Part shown: positions 12,990 through 29,729 of the stretch, one piece after another
Layout of the letters: every line of letters begins with the position of its first letter
Position numbering within the stretch: the first letter of the stretch is position 1
IMG/VR virus record: IMGVR_UViG_3300026183_000009
Coordinates: 1-47,754 of that record
Origin: a virus
Reading direction: 5' to 3' (one strand)
DNA: 47,754 bases
Program-made: the position numbers and the translations under genes
The notes under the pieces: model-generated
Database searches by the model: none
Told to the model about the DNA's origin: nothing
The model's input: the letters and a program-made list of their open reading frames with translations, nothing else

Positions 12990-14879
12990 TTAATATCCAA
13001 ATGTTGAATCTGATGGTACATATTGTTTTATATCTCTTAGTCTTTGCAATGTACCATACACTGAAGGTCTACTCATAATCATATAACGCAATGCATCATA
13101 TGCATGGTCAGAAGCATGAGTATCAACATCCTCGGAATTATTCTTTGATAAAGGAATGCTTTGTAATTCTCTTATCAAGTTTTTACAAGTGCTGAATATT
13201 TGTAGTTTAGGTCTACCATTTGGTTGAACCTTTAAATACTCATGTATTTGTATTTTTCCTTGTACTCTGTTTTTGTCTGCTCTTCTAAGCTTGTGACCCA
13301 TCTTTTGTAAAGCTTCACCTACAGTCGGACCCGATGCTCCTGTTTTAGCCCAAGCTGCTGTATCTAACACACCCGGAACAGAAAAAGGGTCTTCTTTTTC
13401 CATATCTGATATTATATAGCCTAATTCCTCTCCTGTCAAGCCTTTTTGATATAATTCCCTATAAATTATCAAAGTTCCATCATTTTGGTCTACTGTACCC
13501 CATAAACAACAGGATTCTGAGGCATAACCATAATCGATTCCTTTAAGTCTTTCCCAATGAAAAGGAAACTGAAAGGGGTCAACAACATGAACATTCATAT
13601 CAAACTCAGCGAATGCTGCACCTTCTGCAACTTCCCAATTACCTTCAAGTAGCTGTTTACGTTGTGTTGGTGGTAAAGATTCCAACATCTTTTCATAAAC
13701 ACCATCTTTTGCTAAGTAAGGGTTATCCGATAGTTTAGCTGGAATAAACTTTCTGGTTAGACCATCAGAGCCTTCAAAAGATTTGTTTGGGTCGGCTGGT
13801 TCAATGTAACGTCTTTTCACCCAATGAGCACCAACACCACCGGGGTTAGCTGTACAACGTAAATAGGTTTTTATTTCTGGGTCTGTGGTTCTTAAACGAG
13901 ATGCCAAATAGTTCCAGCCAAATTCTGTTGGTAGGTGAGTTATTTCATCAAAACCAATCCAAGAATAAGCTTGACCTTGATAACGATATACGTCAGCATC
14001 TTTTTCTAAGAAACCAAATTCTATTTTAGCTCCGGAAGGAAAAGTCCAAACCTTTTCAACTTCACGAAACCTAGCTCCGGGAAATGCTTGAGGATATAAC
14101 TCTCTAGATTTGTCTATAAGTTCTCTGAGCTCTGGCATGGACCTTCTAAGTATTAAAGCCCTGTGAGCTTTTTTATGACAATACCTTAGAGGGTCAATAA
14201 GCATAGCAAAACTTTTACCACCACCAGCAGCACCACCATAGAGCACATCTTTTTCATCTGCTGCTAAGAATAATGTCTGTGGTCCCTCGTTGGGATGAAA
14301 CAAAACCTTAGAGTCTTTAAGAGTATCTTGAACTGAAGGTGCTGCACTTTCTATTTCACTGTTTGTTAAGATATTGTTGTTGCTTTCACCTTGTAACGTA
14401 TCAAGTACTTTATTTTCTCTTTTTAATTTTGTTTCTTTATATAATACTTTCTTTTTAAGTTTGTCAAGTTCTTTTTTTTCTTGATTTAATTTTTGTTTTC
14501 TGCGTTGTGCTTTAGAAAAATTATAATTACTTTTTACTCCTTGTGGTCTCCCTGTTTTTCTTTTAGGCTCACCTTTAGCATTAAGAATAAAGTTGCCTTC
14601 GGCATCTTTTTCATATTCATTTGGTAGTAATTCCCATAAGTCTTTTTTGAGCATTTTAGCTAATGCAGTGTGACTTATTTTTCTACCAGATTCTAAAGAG
14701 ACTGCTTCGGCTGCTTCTCGAAGTGAAGCTTCTTGTTGAATAACAGCCTTAAGATATTTTTGTAAGATTTCTAATTGTTCGGGTATGGGCTGTAGATAAC
14801 CTTTGATTTCTGATTGTTGATAACCAAATGGAATGGTTCTAGACTTTTTCTTAATGTAGCCTTCAGGCAGCATACTCAT
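12990..14879 (-). CDS. terL: Terminase large subunit with N-terminal recognition domain (629 aa)
   Basis: ATP-driven packaging motor and nuclease. Domains: residues 5-95, an HTH-like domain (TIPFGYQQSEIKGYL, PIPEQLEIL, SLREAAEAVSLESGRKISH) shared with the GIY-YIG protein at 29172; 125-165, a basic coiled coil; ATPase with Walker A GGAAGGGKSF (about 214-223), Walker B WIGFDEIT (about 306-313) and coupling motif CTANPGG (about 343); RNase H-like nuclease with GIDYGYA (about 445), DTAAW (about 505) and SDHAYDALR (about 586). All key residues are present, so it should be active. The ATG overlaps the previous stop as ATGA. Confidence 0.96.
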   Translation of the reverse strand: MSMLPEGYIKKKSRTIPFGYQQSEIKGYLQPIPEQLEILQKYLKAVIQQEASLREAAEAVSLESGRKISHTALAKMLKKDLWELLPNEYEKDAEGNFILNAKGEPKRKTGRPQGVKSNYNFSKAQRRKQKLNQEKKELDKLKKKVLYKETKLKRENKVLDTLQGESNNNILTNSEIESAAPSVQDTLKDSKVLFHPNEGPQTLFLAADEKDVLYGGAAGGGKSFAMLIDPLRYCHKKAHRALILRRSMPELRELIDKSRELYPQAFPGARFREVEKVWTFPSGAKIEFGFLEKDADVYRYQGQAYSWIGFDEITHLPTEFGWNYLASRLRTTDPEIKTYLRCTANPGGVGAHWVKRRYIEPADPNKSFEGSDGLTRKFIPAKLSDNPYLAKDGVYEKMLESLPPTQRKQLLEGNWEVAEGAAFAEFDMNVHVVDPFQFPFHWERLKGIDYGYASESCCLWGTVDQNDGTLIIYRELYQKGLTGEELGYIISDMEKEDPFSVPGVLDTAAWAKTGASGPTVGEALQKMGHKLRRADKNRVQGKIQIHEYLKVQPNGRPKLQIFSTCKNLIRELQSIPLSKNNSEDVDTHASDHAYDALRYMIMSRPSVYGTLQRLRDIKQYVPSDSTFGY

Positions 14880-15121
14880 TTTTTTCTATACTTTCTGACT
14901 TTAGTAGCTACCTTTTTAGGCTGTTTAGAAAACTGTTTACCCTTCTTGGTATCTTCTCTTTTCTTTCTTGTGGTCGCAGCATATTCTTTAGCACTCAAAG
15001 CTTTTATAGCTTTTTCTGGTAAATAACGTTCTCCTGTTTTAGATGACTTTTTACCAGACTTAGTTCGCCATTTTTGTTTGGTCCAGCTATCAAGACTTCT
15101 TTGTGACTTTGCTTTTGGCAT
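14876..15121 (-). CDS. 81-aa very basic protein upstream of terL
   Basis: Nearly every third residue is Lys or Arg. It opens with PKAKSQRSLDSWTKQKWRTK, then TGERYLPEKAIKALSAKEYAATT, and ends with QPKKVATKVRKYRKK. I recognise this pattern from many phage genomes near terminase or head genes, without a known role. Its stop overlaps the terL start by 4 bases, indicating coupled translation. DNA or RNA binding in packaging or in the virion is inferred from charge and context only. Confidence 0.8.
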   Translation of the reverse strand: MPKAKSQRSLDSWTKQKWRTKSGKKSSKTGERYLPEKAIKALSAKEYAATTRKKREDTKKGKQFSKQPKKVATKVRKYRKK

Positions 15122-15209
15122 TTCTTTTCCTAGGTTTTCTTTTTGGCTTTGAATCGTTTCGCAACCATTCTTTCATAAATCTAAATGCTTCTTCTACTCC
15201 GTACAACAT
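15090..15209 (-). CDS. 39-aa basic peptide
   Basis: Starts at an ATG that overlaps the previous stop as TAATG at 15209 and runs to TGA, overlapping the next gene by 32 bases. Sequence begins MLYGVEEAFRFMKEWLR and finishes with a Lys/Arg tail. A longer reading from 15278 is possible but would overlap the upstream gene by 70 bases and lacks a ribosome site. Coupled translation is the likely mode. Function unknown. Confidence 0.5.
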   Translation of the reverse strand: MLYGVEEAFRFMKEWLRNDSKPKRKPRKRNAKSKVTKKS

Positions 15210-15415
15210 TACTTTTTGTAACCTCCGCCTTTGGCTTTGTACTCTTTTGCTAAAAGCTGGGCTTTCCGAGCCGACCACTGACCGGGTTTACCACCTTTAG
15301 AACCGGACTTAATCTTTTCGAAAAGCCTCTTACGCATACTCGGCTTGGTATAATTACCCGCTTCGTTGACACGTGATTTAGGCTTTCTTTTTGTTGTTGT
15401 GCTTTTTCTTGGCAT
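15209..15415 (-). CDS. 68-aa basic protein, WSARKAQLLAKEYK motif
   Basis: The start at 15415 (MPRKSTTTKRKPKSRV) is preferred over an upstream alternative because AGGA lies 9 bases before it. A Lys-rich head is followed by NYTKPSMRKRLFEKIKSG and the strongly conserved-looking GQWSARKAQLLAKEYKAKGG ending. This short domain occurs in phages and bacteria as a small uncharacterised basic protein (a DUF5872-type sequence, from memory). Overlaps the preceding 55-aa gene by 38 bases. Probably nucleic-acid binding, by composition only. Confidence 0.72.
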   Translation of the reverse strand: MPRKSTTTKRKPKSRVNEAGNYTKPSMRKRLFEKIKSGSKGGKPGQWSARKAQLLAKEYKAKGGGYKK

Positions 15416-15545
15416 GTTTAAATATCCTATCGAAGTTATCTCGATACTCTTGTGTATAAACACCGGGACGGGCTTTAGAGCCTTTCCCTGCTATTGTGCC
15501 TGATTTAAATTTTACAGGCTTGTCTGGGCTTCCAATTTGAGGCAT
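15378..15545 (-). CDS. 55-aa basic protein
   Basis: ATG one base after the stop of the membrane peptide upstream, TAA at 15378-15380. Sequence starts MPQIGSPDKPVKFKSGTIAG, contains RPGVYTQEYRDNFDRIF and ends in a Lys/Asn/His tail. The plausible folded region plus tight packing between neighbours support coding. It overlaps the next gene by 38 bases in another frame. No family recognised. Confidence 0.6.
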   Translation of the reverse strand: MPQIGSPDKPVKFKSGTIAGKGSKARPGVYTQEYRDNFDRIFKHAKKKHNNKKKA

Positions 15546-15546
15546 A

Positions 15547-15708
15547 TTACTTTTTAAAGTTTAATGCAATAATATTAACTATTTTTAATAGTTTGTCTAG
15601 CCACTCATCATCCTTTGGAGATGGTGTAGCTGCTGCAACAATAGAAGCAACAGAAATAACTATACTAATACTAATAAATAAATTATATAACCAATCTAAA
15701 ATAAACAT
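15547..15708 (-). CDS. 53-aa single-pass membrane protein
   Basis: Residues 5-27 form one hydrophobic segment (LYNLFISISIVISVASIVAA), followed by TPSPKDDEWLDKLLKIVN and a short hydrophobic end. Proteins with a TM helix and then T-P-P-KDDEWLDKL are frequent small genes near marine phage late regions (from memory). RBS AGGAATT. It follows the 34-aa peptide by 4 bases. Could be a holin or antiholin component, but the holin call at 35905 is better supported. Confidence 0.68.
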   Translation of the reverse strand: MFILDWLYNLFISISIVISVASIVAAATPSPKDDEWLDKLLKIVNIIALNFKK

Positions 15709-15712
15709 AATT

Positions 15713-15817
15713 TTAATTCCTTTTTAATAATAACAATAATTTATATTCTTTTTCTCTTTTTTTCAAGAGTTTTTTTTCTAAAACTTTTTTCAAAGTTAGT
15801 TGTGTTGTAATAGACAT
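15713..15817 (-). CDS. 34-aa Lys/Leu-rich peptide
   Basis: ATG preceded by a near-perfect ribosome site (AAGGAGGT, 5 bases away) presented in a hairpin loop. The peptide is SITTQLTLKKVLEKK followed by alternating Lys and Leu and ends LLLLLKRN, so it would be an amphipathic or membrane-seeking helix. The strong RBS argues for translation. It might serve mainly as a leader that delivers ribosomes to the 53-aa membrane protein 4 bases downstream. Function unknown. Confidence 0.5.
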   Translation of the reverse strand: MSITTQLTLKKVLEKKLLKKREKEYKLLLLLKRN

Positions 15818-15844
15818 AACGCACCTCCTTAATAGATATGCGTT
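15818..15844 (-). promoter_or_regulatory. Hairpin presenting the Shine-Dalgarno of the 34-aa peptide
   Basis: On the minus strand AACGCA (15844-15839) pairs with TGCGTT (15823-15818), enclosing a 15-base loop that contains AAGGAGG. The 3' arm abuts the ATG at 15817. The SD is in the loop and hence accessible, while the start codon is next to the stem, a geometry that could tune initiation. Six base pairs only, so stability is modest. Confidence 0.4.
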
Positions 15845-15879
15845 CCTTCGACTACAACAAAGTCTACTTCCGAGCCTAT

Positions 15880-16206
15880 TTAAGGCTTGAACGTATTACA
15901 AAAGTTTAACCTTTCGTATTCTCTTTGTCTTAAACCATTTATTTCTTTTTCGTATAGTTTAAGTTCAGTTTCTAACACAAAAACTTGTCTTTCTAATTCT
16001 ACTGTTTTTGTTTCTAGTTCTCTAATGTCAGGAAAGATATAATTGTTTTGATTACCTCTAATGTTTCTGGCTTCTCTAGCATTATTATCTATCCTTTCGT
16101 TAATATGAGCATAAGCATAAACAGCAACAGCAATGCTAACAATTATTTGCACTAAATAACTTAGTGAAATGTTCAAAGATGTTTTATCATCAACCTTGGC
16201 TACCAT
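15880..16206 (-). CDS. Membrane-anchored coiled-coil protein (108 aa)
   Basis: A TM segment at about residues 14-35 (LSYLVQIIVSIAVAVYAYAH) is followed by a long charged helix with heptads (IRELETKTVELERQVFVLETELKLYEKEINGLRQRE). N-in, C-out single-pass topology with a periplasmic coiled coil is the layout of inner-membrane spanins and of holin-accessory proteins. Neither is proven here. The ATG overlaps the previous gene's end by 7 bases. Confidence 0.8.
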   Translation of the reverse strand: MVAKVDDKTSLNISLSYLVQIIVSIAVAVYAYAHINERIDNNAREARNIRGNQNNYIFPDIRELETKTVELERQVFVLETELKLYEKEINGLRQREYERLNFCNTFKP

Positions 16207-16490
16207 TTCACTTTATCAGCCCAATATGCTGCTGACATTTTCCCTTTAGCAATGTTTTTAGCATGTCTAGCCTTAAAGCTTTTTCTTTTAGCCTTCATAC
16301 GAGCTGATTCACCCGGCTTGGGCTTACCAGCTGTTTTAGCTCCCTTTTCACCAAAACGAATAAGTTTAATCTTTTCACCTTCTTTAGCCACTACAACGTG
16401 AGACTTCTTAGGATGGTTTGGTGTTCTTTTAGGCTTGTTGTAACCTTTAACACCTGCTCGTTCTAACCTAGAATCTTTCTTTTTAGTCAT
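16200..16490 (-). CDS. 96-aa basic protein ending ARHAKNIAKGKMSAAYWADKVKW
   Basis: Lys-rich N-terminus, then SHVVVAKEGEKIKLIRFGEKG, then RMKAKRKSFKARHAKNIAKG and MSAAYWADKVKW. This architecture, VVVAKEGxKxKxxRFG plus KSFKARHxxNI plus SAAYWAxKVKW, recurs widely in phage genomes, usually unannotated. A DNA-linked role is suggested by charge and by its place between the two terminase genes. It overlaps terS by 8 bases and the next gene by 7, so the three are coupled. Confidence 0.82.
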   Translation of the reverse strand: MTKKKDSRLERAGVKGYNKPKRTPNHPKKSHVVVAKEGEKIKLIRFGEKGAKTAGKPKPGESARMKAKRKSFKARHAKNIAKGKMSAAYWADKVKW

Positions 16491-16890
16491 TTTCTGTTTT
16501 TCCTTCTATGATTATTGTTTCTTTTTCAGGTAAAATAAATATACCTCCGTTGACATTGTGGTCTACTGAAACCTTATCGGTCTTTGTAACCCCTACTCTG
16601 TCTAGCAATGTTTGAGCTGCTTGAAGCTTAGTATTGCTGTTGGGTATTGGCTTATCACTTGTCATAAGCTCAACAAGCTTAAATGCGGCTTTTGGAGCTT
16701 CTTTAGCTAATATGTTCTGGGCTAAATCGACTATTTCGTCTTTTAAGCTTTTAACGACTTGATAGGGATTACCAGCATAACCAGCTAAATCTGCTGCTTT
16801 ATTAATATCACCTTGTGTTTCTATTAAGCTATTTAAGAATAATTCTTGTTTTTCAGTAAGCTTTCTATCGTTTTTTATTAAGCTATTCAT
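16483..16890 (-). CDS. terS: Terminase small subunit (135 aa)
   Basis: Recognises phage DNA for packaging. Residues 10-50 (KLTEKQELFLNSLIETQGDINKAADLAGY) match the N-terminal HTH of small terminases, followed by helical oligomerisation segments (KAAFKLVELM, NTKLQAAQTLLDRVGV) and the C-terminal NGGIFILPEKE often seen in this family. I place the start at 16890 rather than an upstream in-frame codon because the upstream part runs through a perfect promoter. The ATG is only 7 bases after the -10 box, so the mRNA would be leaderless. First gene of the late operon. Confidence 0.88.
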   Translation of the reverse strand: MNSLIKNDRKLTEKQELFLNSLIETQGDINKAADLAGYAGNPYQVVKSLKDEIVDLAQNILAKEAPKAAFKLVELMTSDKPIPNSNTKLQAAQTLLDRVGVTKTDKVSVDHNVNGGIFILPEKETIIIEGKTEND

Positions 16891-16897
16891 AGTAAGT

Positions 16898-16926
16898 ATT
16901 ATATAGCTATATTTAGACTTTGTCAA
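16898..16926 (-). promoter_or_regulatory. Perfect sigma70-type promoter for the late operon
   Basis: Minus strand: TTGACA (16926-16921), 17-base spacer, TATAAT (16903-16898). Both boxes match the bacterial consensus fully with optimal spacing. The expected transcription start is at about 16891-16890, the A of the terS ATG. It stands back to back with the plus-strand promoter at 16944-16972. Confidence 0.9.
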
Positions 16927-16951
16927 GAGATAAAAGAAAGTTCTTGACAAA
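16919..16951. promoter_or_regulatory. Inverted repeat joining two divergent promoters (candidate operator)
   Basis: TTTGTCAAGA (16919-16928) and TCTTGACAAA (16942-16951) are perfect 10-base inverted arms around a 13-base spacer. Each arm contains one promoter's -35 box. Part of the symmetry follows from having two TTGACA boxes face away from each other, but the four extra matching bases per arm do not. A dimeric regulator bound here would control both promoters together. Confidence 0.6.
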
Positions 16952-16972
16952 ACTCAATTTCAACTGTATAAT
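16944..16972 (+). promoter_or_regulatory. Perfect sigma70-type promoter pointing into the gene-free region
   Basis: Plus strand: TTGACA (16944-16949), 17-base spacer, TATAAT (16967-16972). Expected start at about 16979. No credible plus-strand gene follows until 18668. The next plus-strand intrinsic terminator candidate is at 18425-18452, so the transcript may be about 1.5 kb, non-coding and antisense to the two genes at 17549-18159. Confidence 0.88.
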
Positions 16973-16978
16973 AGCTAT

Positions 16979-17499
16979 ATAGGCTGCCGGGGTTAAATAT
17001 ATACATATACCCCACCTATATTTCTTTATAGAGCTTAATAAGCCCGACCTAACCTATCAAACCCTGTAAATCTTAGCGACCACCACCTGTGAAGTTGACA
17101 AGCTTTTTTAGCTCAAAATGTATAAGCATTAGTATATATACTACAGGGGTGGGGGGGTGCTCCTGCGTAGGGTGCGTAGAACTCCAAAGACTTTACAAGT
17201 CTTGCAAGTTCCATAGGAGTATGCATAGAAACTACGAAGACTTGAAAAGTCTAGGTAGATTTCTGATGCCTGTGCGAAGCTCTGTAGAGTTTACGAAGTA
17301 AAAATAGACTGTGAAGAGCTGTTGAGATAATCTAAAAGCTCTAAAGAGCTTAATAGATTTCATAGGCTTTATAAGGCTTTACAAGCTTTTTAAGCTTGAG
17401 AGGAAGGGAACAGAACCCCATAGAGATTAGAAGGTCTTACAAGCCTTATAAGGCTCTGTAAACTATGGGAATCTAGATAGGCTTTGGGACGTTTAAGGC
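16979..17499 (+). other. Gene-free, hairpin-rich stretch (candidate ncRNA / cis element)
   Basis: About 520 bases with no convincing ORF. Contains many short perfect stems with tiny loops, for example AAGACTTTACAAGTCTT, AGACTTGAAAAGTCT, AAGCTCTAAAGAGCTT, AAGCTTTTTAAGCTT and the palindrome AGCCTTATAAGGCT, plus GGGG...CCCC around an AT stem at the expected 5' end (near 16989). Two direct TGCGTAG copies lie at 17164-17179 beside a run of seven Gs. It may be a structured RNA, an origin, or a packaging site, given terS next door. I cannot choose between these. Confidence 0.5.
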
Positions 17500-17522
17500 A
17501 AAAAAAAACTCCCCGAAGGGAG
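17500..17522 (-). terminator. Intrinsic terminator of the small minus-strand operon
   Basis: On the minus strand CTCCC-TTCG-GGGAG is followed by nine Ts. It lies 27 bases past the stop of the 92-aa gene. It ends the 18159-17549 operon and prevents its transcripts reaching the late operon promoter. The TTCG tetraloop is the same as in the capsid and SSB-operon terminators. Confidence 0.93.
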
Positions 17523-17548
17523 CTTTCTAAAGTGAGATAAGCCCGAAC

Positions 17549-17827
17549 TTACCTACGAAGCCGAAGGCTCTGTATGAGTTCTATGTGGGCTTGTGAAGGC
17601 TTAACAACTCTTCGAACTCCTTTGGAGTTAAAAACATATCTGATTTCGTCAACAAAAACATTTATGTTTTCTTCCTCGTAGTTCTCGTCACGCACTACAA
17701 GCACGTCACGCACTAGGTTATCTTTCTCAAATCTATTGTCTAAAACAATAGCTTGTCTAAGATGACGAGAGCAACAAGGTGCTAAAAGCACCCTGTCACC
17801 TTTGTAGATTTGCTCTGAAGTAACCAT
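17549..17827 (-). CDS. Unknown 92-aa protein of the minus-strand control operon
   Basis: Starts 2 bases after the stop of its partner gene. N-terminal YKGDRVLLAPCCSRHLRQAIVLD suggests a small beta-barrel (KOW/SH3-like), with VRDVLVVRDENYEEENINVFVDEI then an Arg-rich C-terminus (SLRLRR). No family recognised. It sits in a separate unit in the control region with its own promoter and terminator, which suggests a regulatory or early takeover role, but this is inference. Confidence 0.78.
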   Translation of the reverse strand: MVTSEQIYKGDRVLLAPCCSRHLRQAIVLDNRFEKDNLVRDVLVVRDENYEEENINVFVDEIRYVFNSKGVRRVVKPSQAHIELIQSLRLRR

Positions 17828-17829
17828 AG

Positions 17830-18159
17830 TTACTTAGAGCCCTCGATAGCACTTTCTAGCTTATAGGCTAGAATGTCATTCGCTACCTCTACAGGAAAAC
17901 TCGAAGAGTTTCGAATCGAAGTCACTTGACCTTGTGTCAAATAACCTTTCTTCAAGTTCAACTTGGACATAAAATGTCCATTCAAGTTGCCATAGTTGAT
18001 ACCATCTGGCTTGTCCTCAACTCTGTTGAGATGACTTACAACGCCCTTTACTTGTAGCCATGTGGCACGTTTATTGGCATTCTTAGCCCATCTATCTTCG
18101 ATAGAAAGGTTTGCGTTATCGTTTTTTGTTGCTTTCGCAACAGTCTTTGCGTTTTTCAT
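17830..18159 (-). CDS. Unknown 109-aa protein, first gene of the minus-strand control operon
   Basis: RBS AAGGAG 10 bases before ATG. Composition is mixed and soluble: a Lys/Ala/Asn-rich head (KNAKTVAKATKND), a helical RATWLQVKGVVSHLNRVED, then NLKKGYLTQGQVTSIRNSSSFPVEVANDI. The last part is faintly HTH-like, so a DNA-binding regulator is possible. I do not recognise a family. It is transcribed toward the late promoter but stopped by the terminator at 17500. Confidence 0.78.
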   Translation of the reverse strand: MKNAKTVAKATKNDNANLSIEDRWAKNANKRATWLQVKGVVSHLNRVEDKPDGINYGNLNGHFMSKLNLKKGYLTQGQVTSIRNSSSFPVEVANDILAYKLESAIEGSK

Positions 18160-18228
18160 GTGAAAAAACTCCTTGAGCCAAAGGCTCGATAGTTAAGCTC
18201 CGAAGCTACCCAGCAACGAAGCCATTAC

Positions 18229-18258
18229 ATAGTAATTCGAATAAATTTCGATTGTCAA
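18229..18258 (-). promoter_or_regulatory. Promoter of the minus-strand control operon
   Basis: Minus strand: TTGACA (18258-18253), 18-base spacer, TACTAT (18234-18229, 4 of 6). Leader of about 60 bases to the ATG at 18159. The spacer holds an inverted repeat TCGAA-N5-TTCGA (18237-18251), a possible operator. Good -35, mediocre -10, so probably weaker than the two perfect promoters. Confidence 0.6.
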
Positions 18259-18289
18259 GCTCGTCAAGTTCATGTTTTATAAATTCTTC

Positions 18290-18513
18290 CTACGCATAAT
18301 GCCCACGAGAACAGGTAAAACCATGCGTACAAGCTTTCATGAATTTCATTCATGGCTCAAAACTACTGTTCAAACATACAGTATCAAAATTCACAAAAAC
18401 ACCTCAAACAGGCTTTTCAAATCCCTATATGTTAGCCATATAGATTTTTTTTCAGCACCCCACAATACACACGCATAGATATCTACGCACACACACGTGC
18501 ACACATGCGTAGA
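18290..18513. repeat. Cluster of CTACGCA / TGCGTAG motifs and hairpins
   Basis: Exact 7-mers CTACGCA at 18290-18296 and 18483-18489 and TGCGTAG at 18506-18512, with near copies (CCATGCGTAC near 18322, ACGCATAG near 18471). Two more exact TGCGTAG copies are at 17164 and 17173. TCTACGCA (18482-18489) and TGCGTAGA (18506-18513) form an 8-bp inverted repeat around an alternating CACACACGTGCACACA. CATGAAT-TTC-ATTCATG (18338-18354) is another hairpin. The stretch 18160-18667 has no credible gene and could be an origin or regulator-binding region. Confidence 0.5.
18425..18452 (+). terminator. Candidate plus-strand intrinsic terminator
   Basis: CTATATG (18425-18431), loop TTAGC, CATATAG (18437-18443), then A and eight Ts. 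The stem is only 7 bp and AT-rich, but the T-run is excellent. It would end transcripts from the promoter at 16944 and insulate the early promoter at 18601. Confidence 0.6.
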
Positions 18514-18600
18514 GGAGATATTTCAAACTTTTTCACACAGGAAGGAGTATGCTCAAAAGACATCTACGACACGATAAACACTCTATGTGCATCTCCTAGC

Positions 18601-18630
18601 TTGACAATGAGCAACAGTTGTGGACAATGG
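18601..18630 (+). promoter_or_regulatory. Early promoter-like element, copy 1
   Basis: Starts with TTGACA and, 16 bases after it, GACAAT (4 of 6 to TATAAT). The 30-base element (TTGACAATGAGCAAC, then TGTGGACAATGG) recurs with 26 of 30 identical bases at 19315-19344. Each copy lies 37-41 bases before an ATG. Repetition upstream of two early genes suggests a promoter or regulator site. Confidence 0.55.
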
Positions 18631-18667
18631 TGTTGCTGACATGGTGTCGGCTAAGGAGTTTTAAAAC

Positions 18668-18928
18668 ATGTTTGATGGTTTGATATTCGGAATCGTAGAC
18701 AACGGAGTGTTAGCTCTGTGTTCCCTTTGGGGAATTGACATAGACCAGAAACTATCTGGTAAAGGTATCAATGGTGCTTTGTATGGAGCATTGTTGGGGA
18801 ATGCATTAAGTGATTTTATTGGTGGTATTATGGACTTCACATGGCTTGTAAGTCTAAACATAGCTATTGGTTGCTTGATTGTTATTCCTGTTGTAAATAT
18901 TTATTTGAGATTTAGAAGAGAAAATTAA
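18668..18928 (+). CDS. Small glycine-rich membrane protein, first early gene (86 aa)
   Basis: AAGGAG ribosome site upstream. Two or three hydrophobic segments: residues 1-21 (FDGLIFGIVDNGVLALCSLW), a Gly/Ala-zipper segment 36-52 (NGALYGALLGNALSDFIGG), and 56-79 (FTWLVSLNIAIGCLIVIPVV), ending RFRREN. Being first in the early unit, a membrane protein could alter the host envelope or exclude superinfection, but nothing in the sequence shows this. Stop and next start share a base (TAATG). Confidence 0.82.
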   Translation: MFDGLIFGIVDNGVLALCSLWGIDIDQKLSGKGINGALYGALLGNALSDFIGGIMDFTWLVSLNIAIGCLIVIPVVNIYLRFRREN

Positions 18929-19281
18929 TGAAAATACTTGACAGAACTTCAAAGACTTTGCAGAAATATTTATTATCTCCGAAGTCTGGTGATAATTACA
19001 GATGTTTCTTTTGGACACGAGAAGGCTTTAGATATGTTACCATCAAGGTTGGTAGAAAATGGGTTTCTATGAGTTGGACAGGAGCAAGACGTAGACTTTC
19101 ATTGGCTATGTTCAAGAATCATGCATGGCTTCAATGGCGATACAATGCTCGGAATGACGCATCTTTAAAGGCTTTCGAGCAAACAGGTAGATATAAAAGA
19201 CCTAACGTATGGTATAGAGATTATGGCTTCAAGACTAATCCAGACCACGAATCAGTAGATAAACTTGCTTGGAAATGTTAA
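18928..19281 (+). CDS. Unknown 117-aa basic protein, early gene
   Basis: Rich in aromatic and basic residues: NYRCFFWTREGFRYVTIKVGRKW, MSWTGARRRLSLAMFKNHAWLQWRY, YKRPNVWYRDYG. The pattern looks like a compact beta/alpha nucleic-acid-binding protein, but I recognise no family. It is translationally coupled to the membrane protein and precedes the second copy of the promoter-like element. Confidence 0.75.
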   Translation: MKILDRTSKTLQKYLLSPKSGDNYRCFFWTREGFRYVTIKVGRKWVSMSWTGARRRLSLAMFKNHAWLQWRYNARNDASLKAFEQTGRYKRPNVWYRDYGFKTNPDHESVDKLAWKC

Positions 19282-19314
19282 TGCGTGATAGAAATTCTAT
19301 GCGTGTCTCTTGGG

Positions 19315-19344
19315 TTGACAACGAGCAACGAATGTGGACAATGG
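19315..19344 (+). promoter_or_regulatory. Early promoter-like element, copy 2
   Basis: TTGACAACGAGCAAC followed by TGTGGACAATGG, matching the element at 18601 in 26 of 30 positions. It lies 41 bases before the ATG at 19386. Because the longer reading frame through this element would start inside or before it, the element supports the later start for the gene that follows. Confidence 0.52.
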
Positions 19345-19385
19345 GTAGCAGTTCAGCAATGAAGCCGAACAACAACGGAGAAATT

Positions 19386-19721
19386 ATGGCAACAAAGAAA
19401 CCAAAGCCAATCATGTTCAGAGACGGAGAAATTGTTAAGCTTCGACCTCAAACATACTACGACAGTAATGTTGTAAAACAAGAAGAAAAACTACTAAAGC
19501 TTGGTCAAACATTCTTAACAAGAGAACAAGCAATACAAAAACTAAAAAGCCTTAGAGCTAGACGAGTTGAAAGTTATTCATTCAAGAATGACAGATATGA
19601 TATCTACAGAGTTAAAGGGCAATTAGTAGGATTAAGAAACATTGCTAGACAGAAGTTCGACAATCGTTATGCTGTGTCTAGACATGTTCAAACAATGTAT
19701 AGATTGGAAGTATTAAAATAA
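19386..19721 (+). CDS. Unknown 111-aa basic early protein
   Basis: Start MATKKPKPIMFRDGEI chosen because ACGGAG lies 7 bases upstream. An upstream in-frame start at 19269 would read through the promoter-like repeat. The protein is basic: QEEKLLKLGQTFLTREQAIQKLKSLRARRVESYSFKNDRYDIYRVKG followed by a QLVGLRNIARQKFDN segment. No family recognised. Last gene before a 275-base structured gene-free stretch. Confidence 0.72.
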   Translation: MATKKPKPIMFRDGEIVKLRPQTYYDSNVVKQEEKLLKLGQTFLTREQAIQKLKSLRARRVESYSFKNDRYDIYRVKGQLVGLRNIARQKFDNRYAVSRHVQTMYRLEVLK

Positions 19722-23208: not shown

Positions 23209-23212
23209 AGGT

Positions 23213-23316
23213 TTTGGCTCAGCAAACAAGGAGATTTATTCTCAAATAATTTCGAGCCATTGATAGGTTTCAATGGGGGTAATGGGGTAGCCTTAAATAT
23301 CCTGCGTTGAGCCAAA
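23213..23316 (+). ncRNA. Candidate structured RNA upstream of the coiled-coil gene
   Basis: TTTGGCTCA (23213-23221) pairs perfectly with TGAGCCAAA (23308-23316), closing an 86-base loop. Inside are GAGA-TTTAT-TCTC (23231-23243) and CCATTGA-TAGGTT-TCAATGG (23257-23276), plus an unpaired G-rich run. The multibranched plan 16 bases before a start codon resembles a riboswitch-like leader, but I match it to no known class. Confidence 0.5.
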
Positions 23317-23331
23317 TTTATTGGAGGTATT

Positions 23332-23715
23332 ATGAAAAATTTATTACGCAAATGGCTTGGTATTACTGAGCTTACTCAATCGATGCTTAGTTTCAAAGTC
23401 GATGCTGACAAATCTAGTGACGAGTTGAAAGACGACATCATGAATGACTTGGAGTATGAGATAGAACGCAAGGTCGAGAACGAAGTCGAGGACCATATCT
23501 CAAACTACTCAGATAAGTTTGATGATATTGATAGTCTAAGGTATGACCTTGATGAACTCAAAGATACTTTTGAAAATGAAGACTTAAGTGGTGGCATTGA
23601 TGAAGCTTATAGTCGTATCGAAGGTTTGACCAATCGTATTGAAGCTTTGGAAGAGAGTGTCTCTAGTCTATCCGTACTTGATAGGCTTGAGGCTTTGGAG
23701 GCTAAACTAAAATAA
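23332..23715 (+). CDS. Coiled-coil protein (127 aa)
   Basis: RBS GGAGGT. Short N-terminal segment (MKNLLRKWLGITELTQ), then highly acidic helices (ELKDDIMNDLEYEIERKVENEVEDH) and a clear C-terminal coiled coil with heptads (YSRIEGLTNRIEALEESVSSL, LDRLEALEAKL). No enzymatic motif. Likely self-associates or docks to a partner. Lies directly after the structured element, which might regulate it. Confidence 0.78.
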   Translation: MKNLLRKWLGITELTQSMLSFKVDADKSSDELKDDIMNDLEYEIERKVENEVEDHISNYSDKFDDIDSLRYDLDELKDTFENEDLSGGIDEAYSRIEGLTNRIEALEESVSSLSVLDRLEALEAKLK

Positions 23716-23724
23716 GGAGTAAGT

Positions 23725-23955
23725 ATGAGCATATTGAATAAAACAGAACTAATGAACTTTGTTAGAAACCAAATACATAATGATTTGTATATGGAACTTT
23801 CAGAGGACTGGGAAAACGAAGAACCTGAATATTTTAATCCTAATTGGGTAAAGAATATCAGCGAAGCAGAAGATATAACAGAACTAAAATATGCTTTGAT
23901 TAATATAGTCAAAGGTCTTAGTAAATATTTGGAGGAAAAAAATGGAATTAACTAA
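23725..23955 (+). CDS. Unknown 76-aa acidic protein
   Basis: RBS AAGGAG. Helix-strand-helix-like: KTELMNFVRNQIHNDLYMELS, then ENEEPEYFNPNWVKNI and ITELKYALINIVKGLSKYLEE. No recognised domain. Overlaps the next gene's start by 14 bases. Confidence 0.7.
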   Translation: MSILNKTELMNFVRNQIHNDLYMELSEDWENEEPEYFNPNWVKNISEAEDITELKYALINIVKGLSKYLEEKNGIN

Positions 23956-24205
23956 GAACGAATATGCGATTGCACAAGCTTTGTATAGCAATGTAGATAT
24001 TGATAGTGTGTTATTATCTTTTAGATATGAAAAAAATAAAGAAGCTTATGAATACGAAATGCAAGTATCTCAAAGGCTAGTAAGAGTAAAAGAAATACAC
24101 CCTACTCATATCATAGCTCAAGACTATGGTACAGGCGAATTAAAAAGATATAATTTAAATAAAATTACAGAAGATTCTTGCAAGGTCTTAACGGAGGCAG
24201 TATGA
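23942..24205 (+). CDS. 87-aa protein with WYL-like beta segment
   Basis: The second half, VSQRLVRVKEIHPTHIIAQDYGTGELKRYNLNKI, has strand spacing and an ending like a small WYL/Sm-like beta-barrel (strand with V--RV--I, strand with -I-A-D, then --RYNL-KI). In that fold the last strand carries FRLDRI-type residues. The first half is helical (KNEYAIAQALYSNVDIDSVL). The similarity is by eye and weak. If right, it could bind a ligand or nucleic acid. Confidence 0.65.
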   Translation: MELTKNEYAIAQALYSNVDIDSVLLSFRYEKNKEAYEYEMQVSQRLVRVKEIHPTHIIAQDYGTGELKRYNLNKITEDSCKVLTEAV

Positions 24206-24426
24206 AAATGATGAGACAAAACCACCCCGAAGCACCTGTTGAGGTCGCTGTAAGTTTTGACAGGTCTCAACAAGAAACTTTTCATACTTTATATGAATCA
24301 GAGTTTCTTCCTTGGAACGAAGAAGTTACATGGAATGTTAGAGAATTGTATGACGGAAGTAAGCTTTACATTTTTGATGTCGAGGTTTATGAATTACTAA
24401 ACGATATTATTGAGAAAGTATTATGA
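24202..24426 (+). CDS. Unknown 74-aa protein
   Basis: Start at 24202 (MKMMRQNHPEAPVEVAVSF) chosen for ACGGAGG, 4-5 bases upstream. An earlier in-frame codon would overlap the previous gene and lacks a ribosome site. Mixed alpha/beta: VEVAVSFDRSQQETFHTLYES then WNVRELYDGSKLYIFDVEVY. The stop overlaps the next ATG as ATGA. No family recognised. Confidence 0.68.
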   Translation: MKMMRQNHPEAPVEVAVSFDRSQQETFHTLYESEFLPWNEEVTWNVRELYDGSKLYIFDVEVYELLNDIIEKVL

Positions 24427-24929
24427 ATATATTTTATTTTTACGATTGCCCAAAAGCTTGTGCCCAAGCACAGCCAGATAAAATGCTAGTGAAGATGCCA
24501 CTAGAAACTGCACAAATGTTATGCACAGCTCACCGAGTTTTAGATGGTGATGAGTATGCAGATGCCAATGGTCTCTACAAAGAAGCATACAAGAATCATC
24601 CATGCACTATATGGGCTAGAAAGACATCCGGGAACTACGCATGGCTTTACGAACACTTTGATGCTTTGTGTTGGGAATATACTCATAGGTATGGTAAGAC
24701 ACACATGTCTGGAGCAAAACTAATGGATGCTTTGAGCAAAGTTCCAGACAATATTGAGCAAGGTGAAATGACACCTATAGCTCTAGCTATGCCCGACCAA
24801 TACAAAGAACCAGACGACCCTATACTTTCGTATAGACAATACTGCATTGCTGAAAAGCATTATGCACAATGGAACAAAAGTAGACCAAGACCTACTTGGT
24901 GGATTGCACCTAATTCTTGGACTGCTTAA
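24423..24929 (+). CDS. Conserved phage protein, possibly DNA repair-like (168 aa)
   Basis: Starts NIFYFYDCPKACAQAQPDK, then LVKMPLETAQMLCTAHRVLDG (20-42), NHPCTIWARKTSGNYAWLYEHFDAL and WEYTHRYGKTHMSG. I recognise this set (AQ--D-H-VKM-LETAQLLCTAH, HPC-IW-R-S--NY-WL, E---RYGK-H) as a protein frequent in cyanophages and other marine phages, usually hypothetical. Automatic annotation sometimes labels such proteins pyrimidine-dimer glycosylase-like; I cannot verify that here. Last gene of the accessory cluster. Confidence 0.72.
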   Translation: MNIFYFYDCPKACAQAQPDKMLVKMPLETAQMLCTAHRVLDGDEYADANGLYKEAYKNHPCTIWARKTSGNYAWLYEHFDALCWEYTHRYGKTHMSGAKLMDALSKVPDNIEQGEMTPIALAMPDQYKEPDDPILSYRQYCIAEKHYAQWNKSRPRPTWWIAPNSWTA

Positions 24930-24955
24930 TTAGTCATCAATGAAGATGAAAATGC

Positions 24956-24984
24956 TTGACAAAATAAATTTTATCGTTTATTTT
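24956..24984 (+). promoter_or_regulatory. Sigma70-type promoter before the SSB gene
   Basis: TTGACA (24956-24961), 17-base spacer, TATTTT (24979-24984, 4 of 6). It lies in the 89-base gap before SSB and would start a separate high-level transcript for SSB and its partner, ended by the terminator at 25743. Confidence 0.68.
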
Positions 24985-25018
24985 AGGAGCATAAAATTTA
25001 ACCATAAGGAGTTAATTT

Positions 25019-25471
25019 ATGGCAATATTAGAAGGTAAAGCTTATTGGGCAAGTGTAACAACTCCCAATACGACTTATGAACCTGTTTATACTGTAGACT
25101 TAGTAGTCGATGCAGATACTGCAAATGACTTTGAGTCTAGAGGTTTTCGTGTAAAAGACCTTTCATTGAAAAATGAAGATGGTTCTCAAGAATCAATAGG
25201 TAAAGCTATTGTTATTAAAAGGAAAGTTAATGGTGCTAGTAATACTGTTAGACCAGCTCCAAAACTTTTTGATAAGAATAAGAATCCTATTGATACCATT
25301 GTTGGCAATGGCTCAACAGTCAAAGTTCAATACAATGAATGGGAGACTGAAAACAAGTATGGTAAGTTCAAGGGTTTGGACTTTCAAGCCATGCAAGTTA
25401 TCGACCTTGTATCTGTTAAATCAGGAGACGGGGACGAGCTAGACCCATTTGGTGATGGTGAGGAGTTTTAA
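25019..25471 (+). CDS. Single-stranded DNA-binding protein, T7 gp2.5-like (150 aa)
   Basis: Coats ssDNA during replication and recombination. OB-like beta-rich body (GKAYWASVTTPNTTYEPVYTVDLVVD, SIGKAIVIKRKVNG, STVKVQYNEWETENKYGKFKG) and a short acidic tail ending DGDELDPFGDGEEF. An acidic tail with terminal Phe is how gp2.5 contacts polymerase and helicase. T7 gp2.5 is 232 aa, so this is a compact version. RBS AAGGAG. Own promoter just upstream and a terminator two genes later. Confidence 0.85.
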   Translation: MAILEGKAYWASVTTPNTTYEPVYTVDLVVDADTANDFESRGFRVKDLSLKNEDGSQESIGKAIVIKRKVNGASNTVRPAPKLFDKNKNPIDTIVGNGSTVKVQYNEWETENKYGKFKGLDFQAMQVIDLVSVKSGDGDELDPFGDGEEF

Positions 25472-25473
25472 TT

Positions 25474-25713
25474 ATGATTATTAATTTCGATGGTAACTCA
25501 TATGAAACTGAAAAGCTTACTGACCCAAAAGCTAGACAACAAGTTCAAGCTTATGTAAGTCAAATAGCTTTCAACAATCAAATGCAGATTAGTTTGCAAA
25601 AGTCTAACGATAAACTTCAAGAGGAGTTAAGACCTTTGTTAGCTGAAGAAGCTTTGATTGAAGAGGAATCAGAAAGTTCTGAAGAAGATAGTAATGAATC
25701 TGACAAAGACTAA
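25474..25713 (+). CDS. 79-aa acidic-tailed protein after SSB
   Basis: Follows the SSB stop by two bases. Starts MIINFDGNSYETEKLTDPKA, then a helix with NNQMQISLQKSNDKLQEELR and a highly acidic tail (EEESESSEEDSNESDKD). Short IxFdGxxY proteins of this kind are common in phages. Coexpression with SSB suggests a replication-related partner, but no function is known to me. Confidence 0.75.
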   Translation: MIINFDGNSYETEKLTDPKARQQVQAYVSQIAFNNQMQISLQKSNDKLQEELRPLLAEEALIEEESESSEEDSNESDKD

Positions 25714-25742
25714 AACTGATTACTAAATTTTCCTTTTATACT

Positions 25743-25764
25743 AGCCCTCTTCGGAGGGCTTTTT
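25743..25764 (+). terminator. Intrinsic terminator between SSB operon and primase
   Basis: AGCCCTC-TTCG-GAGGGCT followed by a run of five Ts (25760-25764). It ends 13 bases before the primase ATG, so replication genes downstream depend on read-through or antitermination unless a promoter is hidden. The terminator type (TTCG loop) matches those at 7504 and 17500. Confidence 0.93.
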
Positions 25765-25777
25765 AATTAAGAATATT

Positions 25778-27445
25778 ATGACAACTAATTTTGTAAAACA
25801 TCATCTTCCATGTTCCTCATGTGGGAGTAGTGATGCATTATCAATTAATGAGGATGGTTCAGCTAAGTGTTTTAGTTGCCAAGGTTTCTTCCCTAAATAT
25901 GAAAAAGGTGATAAGGTAAATACGAGTATGCAAAAATTTAAACAACCAGAACGAGCACTTAACCTTGAAGGTGGTAAGTTTGCTCGGTTAAGTGACAGAG
26001 GAATTTCACAGGAGACTGCCCAGACTTATGGTGTAAGGATTATGTATAATGCTGATGGCACGATAGCTCAACACCTATATCCTTTCTACATCAACAATGA
26101 ATTATCAGCAATCAAAACAAGATACATAAAAGACAAACGTTTTACTTTTGAAGGCACGATTCAAGATACCGGTTTATTCGGACAGAATCTTTTTAAAGAG
26201 GGTGGTAAATATCTTACCATCACTGAAGGAGAGTGTGATGCAATGGCTGCCTATGAGCTTCTCGGTAGTAAGTGGGCAGTCGTATCCATTAAAAGAGGAG
26301 CTGGTTCGGCAGTAAAAGATATCAAAGAAAACATTGAGTATGTTGAAAGCTTTGACAATGTTATTCTTTGTTTTGACAAAGACAAACAAGGTATCGAAGC
26401 AGCGAAGAAAGTTGCTTCCATTATTAAACCTCGTAAGTGTAAGATAATCAATTTACCTAATGGTTATAAAGATGCCAACGATATGCTTCTTAAAAACAAA
26501 CACCAAGAATTTGTTAGAGCTTGGTGGGATGCTCAAGTCTATACCCCAAGTGGTATCATTAGAGTTTCAGAAAAGAAGAAAGAGTTTTTCAATAGACCAA
26601 AGAAAGAAAGTGTTCCTTATCCTTTCGAAGGTCTTAACAAAAAACTTATCGGTATGCGACAAGGCGAGTTAGTTACTATCACAGGTGGCACAGGTCTTGG
26701 TAAGTCAAGTGTCACTAGAGAAATAGAACATTGGCTCGTCAATAAAACAGATGACAACGTGGGTATCATTGCCCTTGAAGAAGACTGGAGAAGAACAGTC
26801 GATGGTATTCTAAGTATTGAAGCGAATGCTAGGCTTTACATAGACCATATCCGGGAAGAGTTATCATCTGAAACTTTGGATGTTATGTATGAAAAAATCT
26901 TTGGTAAAGATAAAGTATTTATTCATGCTCACTTCGGGACTAACGATATTGAAGATATCTTTTCTAAGCTTCGTTATCTTATTGTCGGCTGTGATTGTAA
27001 GTGGGTGGTCGTAGACCATTTACATATGCTAGTGACAGCTCTGTCTGAGAATGATGAACGTAGAGGTATTGATAACATCATGACTAGACTTAGAAGTATG
27101 GTCGAGGAAACAGGAGCAGGTATTATTCTGGTCTCACACCTCAGACGTGTGGATGGTAACAAAGGACATGAGAATGGTATCCAAGTTAATTTAAGTCATC
27201 TAAGAGGCTCTAACAGCATTGCACAATTATCTGACTGTGTGATAGCCCTTGAAAGAAATCAACAGGCTGACGATGAAAGAGAGTCTAGAACGACACGTTT
27301 AAGAGTGTTAAAGTCTAGATACACTGGTGATGTTGGATTAGCTTCTTCCTTGCTTTATGATAAAGATTCAGGTAGACTAACAGAGTTTGATGAAGCTGAC
27401 TTCAGTGGTATTGATGATGAGTTTGAACCAGACATACCTTTTTAG
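25778..27445 (+). CDS. Primase-helicase, T7 gp4-like (555 aa)
   Basis: Makes RNA primers and unwinds the fork as a ring. Zinc ribbon with C12, C15, C31, C34 (CSSC ... CFSC). TOPRIM: TITEGECDA near 147 and CFDKDKQG near 197. RecA-like helicase: Walker A TGGTGLGKSS near 302, GIIALEEDW near 328, Walker B KWVVVDHLHML near 408, then GIILVSHLRR near 450. Acidic C-terminus ending PDIPF, as used in T7 to bind polymerase. Length is close to T7 gp4 (566 aa). Ribosome site is poor and a terminator immediately precedes it. Confidence 0.97.
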   Translation: MTTNFVKHHLPCSSCGSSDALSINEDGSAKCFSCQGFFPKYEKGDKVNTSMQKFKQPERALNLEGGKFARLSDRGISQETAQTYGVRIMYNADGTIAQHLYPFYINNELSAIKTRYIKDKRFTFEGTIQDTGLFGQNLFKEGGKYLTITEGECDAMAAYELLGSKWAVVSIKRGAGSAVKDIKENIEYVESFDNVILCFDKDKQGIEAAKKVASIIKPRKCKIINLPNGYKDANDMLLKNKHQEFVRAWWDAQVYTPSGIIRVSEKKKEFFNRPKKESVPYPFEGLNKKLIGMRQGELVTITGGTGLGKSSVTREIEHWLVNKTDDNVGIIALEEDWRRTVDGILSIEANARLYIDHIREELSSETLDVMYEKIFGKDKVFIHAHFGTNDIEDIFSKLRYLIVGCDCKWVVVDHLHMLVTALSENDERRGIDNIMTRLRSMVEETGAGIILVSHLRRVDGNKGHENGIQVNLSHLRGSNSIAQLSDCVIALERNQQADDERESRTTRLRVLKSRYTGDVGLASSLLYDKDSGRLTEFDEADFSGIDDEFEPDIPF

Positions 27446-27448
27446 ATT

Positions 27449-29185
27449 ATGAAAAGTTTAGTATTTGATATCGAAACAGATGACCTAAATGCTACAAAAG
27501 TCTGGTGCATTGTGGCTATAGATGAAAATAATAAAGTCTATAGCTTTCATGGCGATACCATTGAAGATGGTTTAATTCTTCTCAATGAAGCAGAGATGCT
27601 CATTGGACATAATATTCTTGGTTTTGATATCCCTATCTTAGAAAAACTATACGATTGGACACCGAATGCCTCCATAAAAATAATTGATACTTTGGTGTTG
27701 AGTAGGCTTTTTAATCCTACACGAGAAGGTGGGCATAGTTTGGAGAGATGGGGTATCAAACTTGGAATGCACAAGTTAGATTTTTCTGATTTCACAGAGT
27801 TCTCTGATGATATGTTGAAGTATTGTATCGCTGATACCAAGCTCAACAAGATTTTATTTCAAGCACTACGTAAAGAAGCTATGGGATTCTCTAAAGAAAG
27901 TATTAATCTGGAACATGACATTACAAGAATTTTAACCAAACAAACTAAAGATGGTTTTGCATTTGATTTTAAATCAGCTACATTTCTTATCAGTAAATTC
28001 AATAAACTTCTAAAAGAAACAGAAGATAAAGTTCACGAAACATTTAAACCAAAATGGGTAGACGATAAAGTTGTTTCACCTTACACGAAAAAAGATGGGA
28101 CTTTATCTCGTAGAGGATTGACAGATGAGGAATATAACTCTATAATAGAAGGTTTGCGTCCTAATAAACCTTTCATGCGTAAAACTCTACAGGAGTTTAA
28201 CTTAGGTTCAAGAAAGCAGATAGGAGAATATCTTACAGATTTTGGCTGGAAGCCTAGAAAGTTTACTCCAACAGGACAACCTATTGTAGATGAAGCTACT
28301 CTAAAAGAAGTAGAGCATATACCAGAAGCAAAACTTATTGCTGATTTCTTACTATATCAAAAGAGATTAGCACAGGTCCAATCTTGGCTCGATGCGTTGG
28401 CAGATGATGAACGTATTCATGGTTCTGTTATTTCTACAGGGACAATTACGGGTAGAATGTCCCATAGAAATCCTAACGTTGCTCAAGTGCCTAGTGTAAA
28501 GAGCAAGTTTGGTGAGGAATGTCGAGCCTGTTGGACTGTTCCAGAAGGCTACAAGCTTGTTGGTGTTGATGCTTCAGGCTTAGAGCTAAGAATGTTAGCT
28601 CATTATATGGATGACGAGGAGTATATAAATGAAATTATCGATGGAGATATTCACACAACTAACCAACAAATTGTTGGACTTAAATCAAGAGATAAGGCTA
28701 AAACATTCATCTATGCACTTATCTACGGAGCAGGAGACGAAAAAATTGGTAAAATTGTTGACGGAAATAAAGCCGATGGCAGAGAACTTAAACAACGTTT
28801 TCTTGCTGGTCAACCTGCATTTAAATCTCTTAGAGAACGAGTGCAAAGAGCAGCTCAAAAAGGATTCCTCAAAGGACTAGATGGTCGTAAGATTATACTG
28901 AGACATCAACATGCTGCTTTAAATACTTTACTACAAGGTGGAGGAGCAATCGTTATGAAGAAAGGTTTATGCATACTTGACGAAAGATTAAGATTAGCTA
29001 ACATAGATTATAAGTTTGTTGCCAACATCCATGATGAATGGCAGATTGAAGTAAGAGAATGTCAAGCAATGAGAGTAGGCGAGTTAGCAGTTGAATCTAT
29101 TCGAGATGCTGGTAAGTATTTTAACATGCGTTGTCCTTTGGATGGCGAATATAAAATAGGGAGTAACTGGAGTGAAACCCATTAA
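27449..29185 (+). CDS. DNA polymerase, family A with 3'-5' exonuclease (578 aa)
   Basis: Replicative polymerase. Exonuclease: Exo I FDIETDD (6-12), Exo II GHNILGFDIPIL near 52, Exo III YCIADTK near 125. Polymerase: TGRMSHRNPN-type motif near 335, motif A GVDASGLELRML near 371, motif B RDKAKTFIYALIYGAG near 413, motif C IHDEW near 527. All catalytic residues are present. T7 gp5 is 704 aa; the roughly 125-residue deficit suggests no long thumb insertion for thioredoxin. Starts 3 bases after primase and overlaps the GIY-YIG gene by 14 bases. Confidence 0.96.
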   Translation: MKSLVFDIETDDLNATKVWCIVAIDENNKVYSFHGDTIEDGLILLNEAEMLIGHNILGFDIPILEKLYDWTPNASIKIIDTLVLSRLFNPTREGGHSLERWGIKLGMHKLDFSDFTEFSDDMLKYCIADTKLNKILFQALRKEAMGFSKESINLEHDITRILTKQTKDGFAFDFKSATFLISKFNKLLKETEDKVHETFKPKWVDDKVVSPYTKKDGTLSRRGLTDEEYNSIIEGLRPNKPFMRKTLQEFNLGSRKQIGEYLTDFGWKPRKFTPTGQPIVDEATLKEVEHIPEAKLIADFLLYQKRLAQVQSWLDALADDERIHGSVISTGTITGRMSHRNPNVAQVPSVKSKFGEECRACWTVPEGYKLVGVDASGLELRMLAHYMDDEEYINEIIDGDIHTTNQQIVGLKSRDKAKTFIYALIYGAGDEKIGKIVDGNKADGRELKQRFLAGQPAFKSLRERVQRAAQKGFLKGLDGRKIILRHQHAALNTLLQGGGAIVMKKGLCILDERLRLANIDYKFVANIHDEWQIEVRECQAMRVGELAVESIRDAGKYFNMRCPLDGEYKIGSNWSETH

Positions 29186-29729
29186 TATACCTAAAGATTA
29201 TATATCTCGAAAAACTTCGACCATTGATTTTGGTTATGAAGAAAGTGAGATTGATGGGTATTTAAAACCAATACCAGAACAGTTAAAGCTTCTTTATACT
29301 GCTGAACAAAAAATAAAACAAGGTAAATCTACAAGAGTTGTTGCTCGTTGGTTATCAAAAAAGAGCAATAGATATATAAGTCACGTTGGTCTTTGGAAAC
29401 ATGTAACGAATAAAACATCACATGAATTTACCAAAGTTTGTAACCAACAAAAAGAAGGCTATATTTATATCTTAACCAACCCGGCATGGCAAGATTGGGT
29501 TAAAGTTGGCATGGCTGTGGACCCTGAAGATAGATGTTCTACTTTTCAAATAGGTTCACCATTTAGGGATTATGATATATTTTTTACTAAGTTTTTTAAG
29601 GATAGACAAAAAGCAGAAAGCAATCTACACAAATTGTTAAAAAAAGAAGCAGAGAAATTTAATGGCGAATGGTTTAAAATTTGCAAAACTAAAACACAGA
29701 GGTTAATAGAAAATTATGAAACCAAATAA
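29172..29729 (+). CDS. GIY-YIG (T5orf172-type) nuclease with terminase-like N-domain (185 aa)
   Basis: GTG start with GGGAG 8 bases upstream. Residues 5-80 align closely with the N-terminal domain of the large terminase: FGY, SEI, GYL, PIPEQL and ISH are shared in order. Residues 96-170 are a T5orf172/MUG113-type GIY-YIG domain: EGYIYIL (95-101), KVGMA (111-115), R121, E149, NGEWFK (164-169). This family cuts DNA; several members are homing endonucleases. The fusion implies that nuclease and terminase recognise a similar DNA site or partner. Confidence 0.85.
   Translation: MKPINIPKDYISRKTSTIDFGYEESEIDGYLKPIPEQLKLLYTAEQKIKQGKSTRVVARWLSKKSNRYISHVGLWKHVTNKTSHEFTKVCNQQKEGYIYILTNPAWQDWVKVGMAVDPEDRCSTFQIGSPFRDYDIFFTKFFKDRQKAESNLHKLLKKEAEKFNGEWFKICKTKTQRLIENYETK

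Follow-up and report, generated by a model that had tools for sequence, protein, structure and literature searches.

Introduction

ICP1 Odn is a T5orf172 nuclease with a captured RepA_N domain, which is 42% identical to that of the donor PLE, and it cuts the donor's origin (PMC8263062). Odn demonstrates that a captured module can direct a T5orf172 enzyme to the site used by the donor of this module (PMC8263062). According to the survey PMC10448857, T5orf172 enzymes are predicted to bind DNA with the region that lies outside their nuclease domain. The homing endonucleases treated there, which contain CapR, DUF723/DUF4397 or RepA_N, resemble the enzyme studied here in their nuclease domain, their modular N-terminus and their location next to an essential gene at a variable junction. 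The same survey cites the HNH nuclease of HK97, which helps the terminase at cos.

The window, i.e. the whole stretch of DNA that was analysed, comprises 47,754 bases and corresponds to a virus record of IMG/VR. The nearest isolates of its terminase, small terminase subunit (TerS) and polymerase are the pelagiphages HTVC103P, HTVC104P and HTVC115P and HMO-2011-type phages. Its large terminase subunit (TerL) and a T5orf172 GIY-YIG nuclease have an N-terminal unit of approximately 75 residues in common, which is designated RD here after its resemblance to the recombinase (DNA-binding) domain found in large serine integrases. Like Odn, the nuclease combines a homing-type T5orf172 backbone with an N-terminal domain homologous to an essential DNA-recognition protein of another pathway (42% identity between Odn and RepA_N, 47% between the nuclease and TerL). 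In contrast to Odn, the module probably comes from the packaging machinery and not from a replication initiator, its probable donor is the phage group itself and not a satellite, and the target and activity of the nuclease are putative. RD and the TerL segment following it (the tail) are not among the modules named in the excerpt of PMC10448857 considered here, which are zinc fingers and RepA_N. HK97-type nucleases likewise link a homing-type enzyme to terminase function, but they belong to the HNH type and are encoded beside the terminase, and that excerpt describes no sharing of a domain with TerL. HMO-2011-type and HTVC103P/HTVC115P-type phages possess RD in the same contexts as the window and its relatives, as the TerL N-terminus or as a gene just upstream of TerL; an RD nuclease was not found in these isolates. 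CRP-2, CRP-603 and CRP-235 encode T5orf172 enzymes which, unlike that of the window, lack RD.

Results

Common N-terminal module of TerL and the nuclease

The relevant features of the window are:

12990..14879, minus strand: TerL, large terminase subunit, 629 amino acids, in the order RD, tail, ATPase/nuclease (PF03237 E 9e-14; phrog_979 E 6.8e-63)
14442..14636, minus strand: TerL tail (residues 82-146), WELLPNEYEKDAEGNFILNAKGEPKRKTGRPQG and a lysine-rich stretch (BLASTP to L329 E 2e-7, to L281 E 8e-9)
14622..14867, minus strand: RD module of TerL (residues 5-86; homology to the nuclease RD)
16483..16950, minus strand: TerS, small terminase subunit (homology at 16486-16866; tblastn 57-67% identity to TerS of HTVC115P and HTVC103P)
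27449..29185, plus strand: DNA polymerase A, left side of a variable junction (PF00476 E 7e-53)
29172..29729, plus strand: RD and T5orf172 GIY-YIG nuclease, 185 amino acids, GTG start (AlphaFold2 mean pLDDT 85.3)
29190..29432, plus strand: RD module of the nuclease (residues 7-87; AlphaFold2 mean pLDDT 87.9)
29457..29711, plus strand: T5orf172 GIY-YIG nuclease domain (residues 96-180; PF10544 E 1.2e-10, PF13455 E 1.5e-11)
29716..30141, plus strand: phrog_13596 protein, right side of the variable junction (E 2e-45)

The earlier note had claimed that TerL and a GIY-YIG nuclease share an N-terminal domain, after which one protein continues into an ATPase and the other into a T5orf172-type domain. 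Both open reading frames were found, and the common domain was confirmed by BLASTP, which aligned TerL residues 4-77 with nuclease residues 6-78 (47% identity, 35/74 positions identical and 49/74 (66%) similar, one gap, 65.9 bits, E 3e-17). The start of the shared region had been placed one residue too late in each protein (5 and 7). Outside RD, all remaining BLASTP segments between the two proteins were noise (E ~1 or more), and the nuclease used as a query against the whole window record matched only itself and TerL (E 6.5e-16 for TerL). The different continuations were also verified, since TerL leads into Terminase_6N (PF03237) at residues 214-428, and residues 96-180 of the nuclease are T5orf172/MUG113. 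The nuclease gene shares 14 nt with the polymerase gene and another 14 nt with the gene that follows it.

Occurrence of RD in related phages

In HMO-2011, CRP-2, HTVC115P and HTVC103P, a small gene of its own between terS and terL encodes RD; in CRP-235, CRP-3, CRP-738, phiM6 and Rhizobium phages, RD forms the N-terminus of TerL. Its description as an N-terminal extension of TerL is therefore correct for some phages, while in many relatives it is an independent gene. Viral contigs sampled with several queries contained at least 194 solo RD, 78 tail-TerL, 25 RD-TerL and 10 RD-tail-TerL reading frames as packaging classes (each number being a minimum), and at least 38 RD-GIY and at least 23 tail-RD-GIY nucleases in addition to at least three tails truncated by contig ends; these counts are per locus, and the loci overlap and do not represent independent genomes. 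Among the loci examined, RD was confined to packaging genes and T5orf172 nucleases. Of the solo RD genes in the matches listed, 189/194 lay directly upstream of TerL and 5/194 at locus ends, with none elsewhere, and every other RD in these matches was fused to TerL or to a T5orf172 nuclease. As every scan started from an RD, tail, nuclease or neighbour sequence and covered at most 80 loci, rare other contexts may have been missed. A genome-wide scan of bacteria and archaea for RD gave a single hit, on a contig from a SAR11 single-cell genome where TerL is adjacent to RD, and no satellite carrying RD.

On this contig (L454:1-6194, Pelagibacteraceae AG-422-J20), RD is accompanied by TerL and a portal-like gene of the phage group, a finding that points to SAR11 as the host of the respective relative. 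The module is not exclusively marine, as the soil Rhizobium/Sinorhizobium phages RHph_N3_19 and phiM6 (L271, L272) have RD at the N-terminus of TerL. In HTVC033P (L012:2065-2400), an unannotated RD reading frame is located between terS and terL, where the deposited annotation shows a gap.

Predicted nature of RD

Because of its similarity in phrog_95, hhalign and Foldseek comparisons, RD is most likely a DNA-binding module of the recombinase-domain type. An AlphaFold2 prediction from an alignment of 31 RDs gave a confident small fold with two strands followed by three helices (mean pLDDT 87.9). Seven of the 31 members matched phrog_95, which is annotated as integrase (best E 6.4e-6). The hhalign probability of RD was 96.3% with a set of serine-integrase recombinase domains that had partly been found through a search with an RD member, 29.9% with the independently chosen TP901-1 alone and 0.2% with GIY-YIG. 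Foldseek against viral models returned RD homologues, followed by resolvases and serine recombinases (prob 0.96-0.99), and a structure comparison with the PDB placed Bxb1-att complexes on top with weak E values of 0.04 to 0.8. With the model of the whole nuclease, integrase-DNA complexes matched one part and Slx1 and UvrC the GIY part, all of them weakly. RD and the recombinase domain of serine integrases (PF07508; Bxb1, TP901-1, A118) agree in the PFGY start, the register, the order of strands and helices and the predicted fold. On the other hand, RD lies below the Pfam threshold and lacks the NPxYxG end of the family, and the RD proteins are devoid of the catalytic serine-recombinase domain and the following zinc ribbon of large serine integrases. 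At the curated threshold, Pfam Recombinase (PF07508) matched none of the 31 members and nothing in the window record. Neither Pfam nor NCBIfam offered a significant name for RD, and a PDB sequence search with the RD profile gave no match. The assignment as a recognition-type domain made in the earlier note is supported by sequence profiles, the predicted fold and the position-for-position exchange with zinc fingers (see below), which all point toward DNA binding. A TerS fused to TerL was also considered for RD and rejected, as hhalign of RD with TerS yielded 0.4% and a separate TerS gene is present.

The nuclease family and its insertion site

The window nuclease scores above the curated cut-offs of PF10544 and PF13455 and retains the residues G96, Y99, K111, G113, R121, E149, H153 and E166, which are invariant in a 29-row alignment of the family. 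By analogy with known GIY-YIG enzymes, Y99, K111, G113, R121, E149 and E166 probably have a catalytic role. T5orf172 relatives in viral contigs mostly possess Cys4 zinc fingers at the N-terminus, and most of them begin overlapping the end of the polymerase gene. At the junction between the polymerase and phrog_13596 genes, 75 loci including the window could be scored: 43 had no added reading frame of more than 70 amino acids, six contained RD nucleases and 26 other reading frames. This presence or absence at one site among relatives is the picture of a homing-nuclease hot spot. RD nucleases occur in a small part of the phage group, and most relatives do without one.

Four of the other occupants (L276:2929-3480, L277:2641-3501, L288:180-677 and L298:2894-3511) comprise an HNH_3 nuclease, a probable C5 cytosine methyltransferase, assigned by reading its sequence, a Cys-rich probable HNH protein and an unnamed protein.

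Exchange of RD between nuclease backbones

In the nucleases, RD occupies the place of the Cys4 zinc finger of sister enzymes. The RD nucleases have the architecture RD-GIY (the clade of the window and L192), RD-linker-GIY (L187-L191, L193), zinc finger-RD-Cys-rich segment-GIY (L294) or tail-RD-GIY (L281, L329, L353-L360, L367, L382); those with the tail are referred to as type B, as opposed to type A. In the GIY tree, the four backbones of type A were not monophyletic (AU p 0.009), and the enzyme of L190 has a GIY domain 90% identical to that of the zinc-finger enzyme of L131 together with an RD 70% identical to that of the window. From this polyphyly and these identities it is apparent that RD has been exchanged between different nuclease backbones.

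In the RD tree, type B nucleases are nested among solo packaging RDs, in a clade with 95/94 support, and type A is placed elsewhere. A common origin of both types was not formally rejected (AU p 0.09). As this value is not decisive, an origin on at least two occasions is proposed from tree position and architecture. Since packaging genes carry RD widely and in diverse forms, and nucleases only rarely, the transfer presumably proceeded from packaging genes to nucleases. Type B nucleases start with the motif W-x-x-NP-x-x-Y...DGSFxLKKDGTPxxKxGRPxG, a tail that is also the start of TerL in solo-RD phages and the segment after RD in the TerL of the window. Their order, tail followed by RD, is the reverse of that in the window TerL. 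The acquisition of both elements by type B suggests that RD and tail may work as one unit.

Discussion

The data give good support to the sharing of a module by packaging genes and homing-type nucleases. The reading we prefer, whose chance of being correct in its entirety we put a little short of even, is that of a T5orf172 nuclease with a packaging-derived RD cutting at packaging-RD-recognised sequences of co-infecting relatives or satellites. The nuclease would be a homing-endonuclease-like enzyme whose targeting module is common to, and probably taken from, the packaging machinery of the group, where the terminase would use RD either fused to TerL or as a small neighbouring protein. RD would bind DNA in both proteins and retain its specificity in the nuclease. 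By the logic of Odn, the enzyme would then bind the sequence recognised by the packaging RD and cleave at this place, so that the genomes of co-infecting relatives or satellites would suffer damage, to the advantage of its own. Taken as a step of its own, a rival's packaging site as the target is tentative, with a chance clearly below even. The broader proposal, that packaging-directed nucleases copying RD, or RD plus the TerL tail, evolved at least twice against rival phages or satellites, is rather doubtful. The position of the nuclease gene beside the polymerase and not the terminase speaks against the preferred reading, and the specificity of RD may have diverged, since the RDs of the nuclease and its own TerL differ at more than half of their positions.

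The main rival, which is possible and likewise some way from an even chance, is an ordinary free-standing homing endonuclease for which RD is merely a convenient DNA-binding module with altered specificity. It would cut the nuclease-free junction of polymerase and phrog_13596 and have its own gene copied in. This agrees with the hot spot described above, where unoccupied junctions stand beside those that hold an RD nuclease, the HNH nuclease, the probable C5 methyltransferase or another reading frame, and with PMC10448857, in which homing genes of the T5orf172 kind are concentrated close to essential genes and their DNA-binding domains can be exchanged. It leaves unexplained, however, that packaging genes and no other DNA-binding protein supplied RD twice over, and in type B the TerL tail as well. 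It is also conceivable, if improbable, that RD is a protein-docking domain which binds a partner such as TerS or the portal, so that the nuclease would reach packaging complexes and not a DNA sequence. The best conserved stretch of RD is the FGY...L.PI region ahead of the helix-turn-helix-like part, a conservation exceeding the need of a pure DNA reader, but docking is hard to reconcile with the profile and fold similarity to integrase DNA-binding domains and with the replacement of zinc fingers by RD.

The earlier note had suggested that the two enzymes may target one DNA site, or that the nuclease competes with the terminases of relatives. In the window, the one genome on which this comparison is based, the nuclease RD ranks 35/69 among packaging RDs in identity to its own TerL RD, and 49/69 for the putative recognition helix; TerL was absent from all nine further nuclease-bearing contigs checked. 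As the nuclease RD resembles that of its own TerL no more than it does most other packaging RDs, a common site for this pair of enzymes appears less plausible, and competition with the packaging of relatives, for which the design of Odn provides an experimentally proven parallel (PMC8263062), would fit better. This also bears on a role as packaging helper, in which the nuclease would bind the site of its own terminase and help to make genome ends. The same domain in both enzymes of one genome and the precedent of the HK97 HNH nuclease at cos, described in PMC10448857, favour such a role. It is nevertheless very improbable: most relatives package without an RD nuclease, the gene belongs to the replication module, on the other strand and a long way from terL, and the rank of 35/69 suits an attack on others better than assistance to the own packaging and argues against a helper, even though plain drift would give the same rank.

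A possible packaging site is indicated by four exact copies of TATTAAGCTNT, two per orientation, at positions 16822-17355 of the window, around and upstream of the start of terS. The expectation from dinucleotide shuffles is 0.49 for the window, for a motif that was picked after the repeats had been seen. Because of this post hoc choice and the absence of TATTAAGCTNT from L212 and L232, it is a lead only.

If the preferred reading is true, the principle of Odn applies to packaging sites as well as to replication origins, and a direct test of interference among abundant marine phages becomes feasible. Whatever the target, the analysis provides a lead on the unnamed small gene between terS and terL, which would encode an integrase-like, probably DNA-binding part of the packaging machinery that also occurs as a TerL extension. 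The natural nuclease variants constitute a set of RDs for studying specificity. An unusually modular example is the reading frame of 322 residues at L294 (78-1043), in which a Cys4 zinc finger, RD and a further Cys-rich segment precede GIY-YIG.
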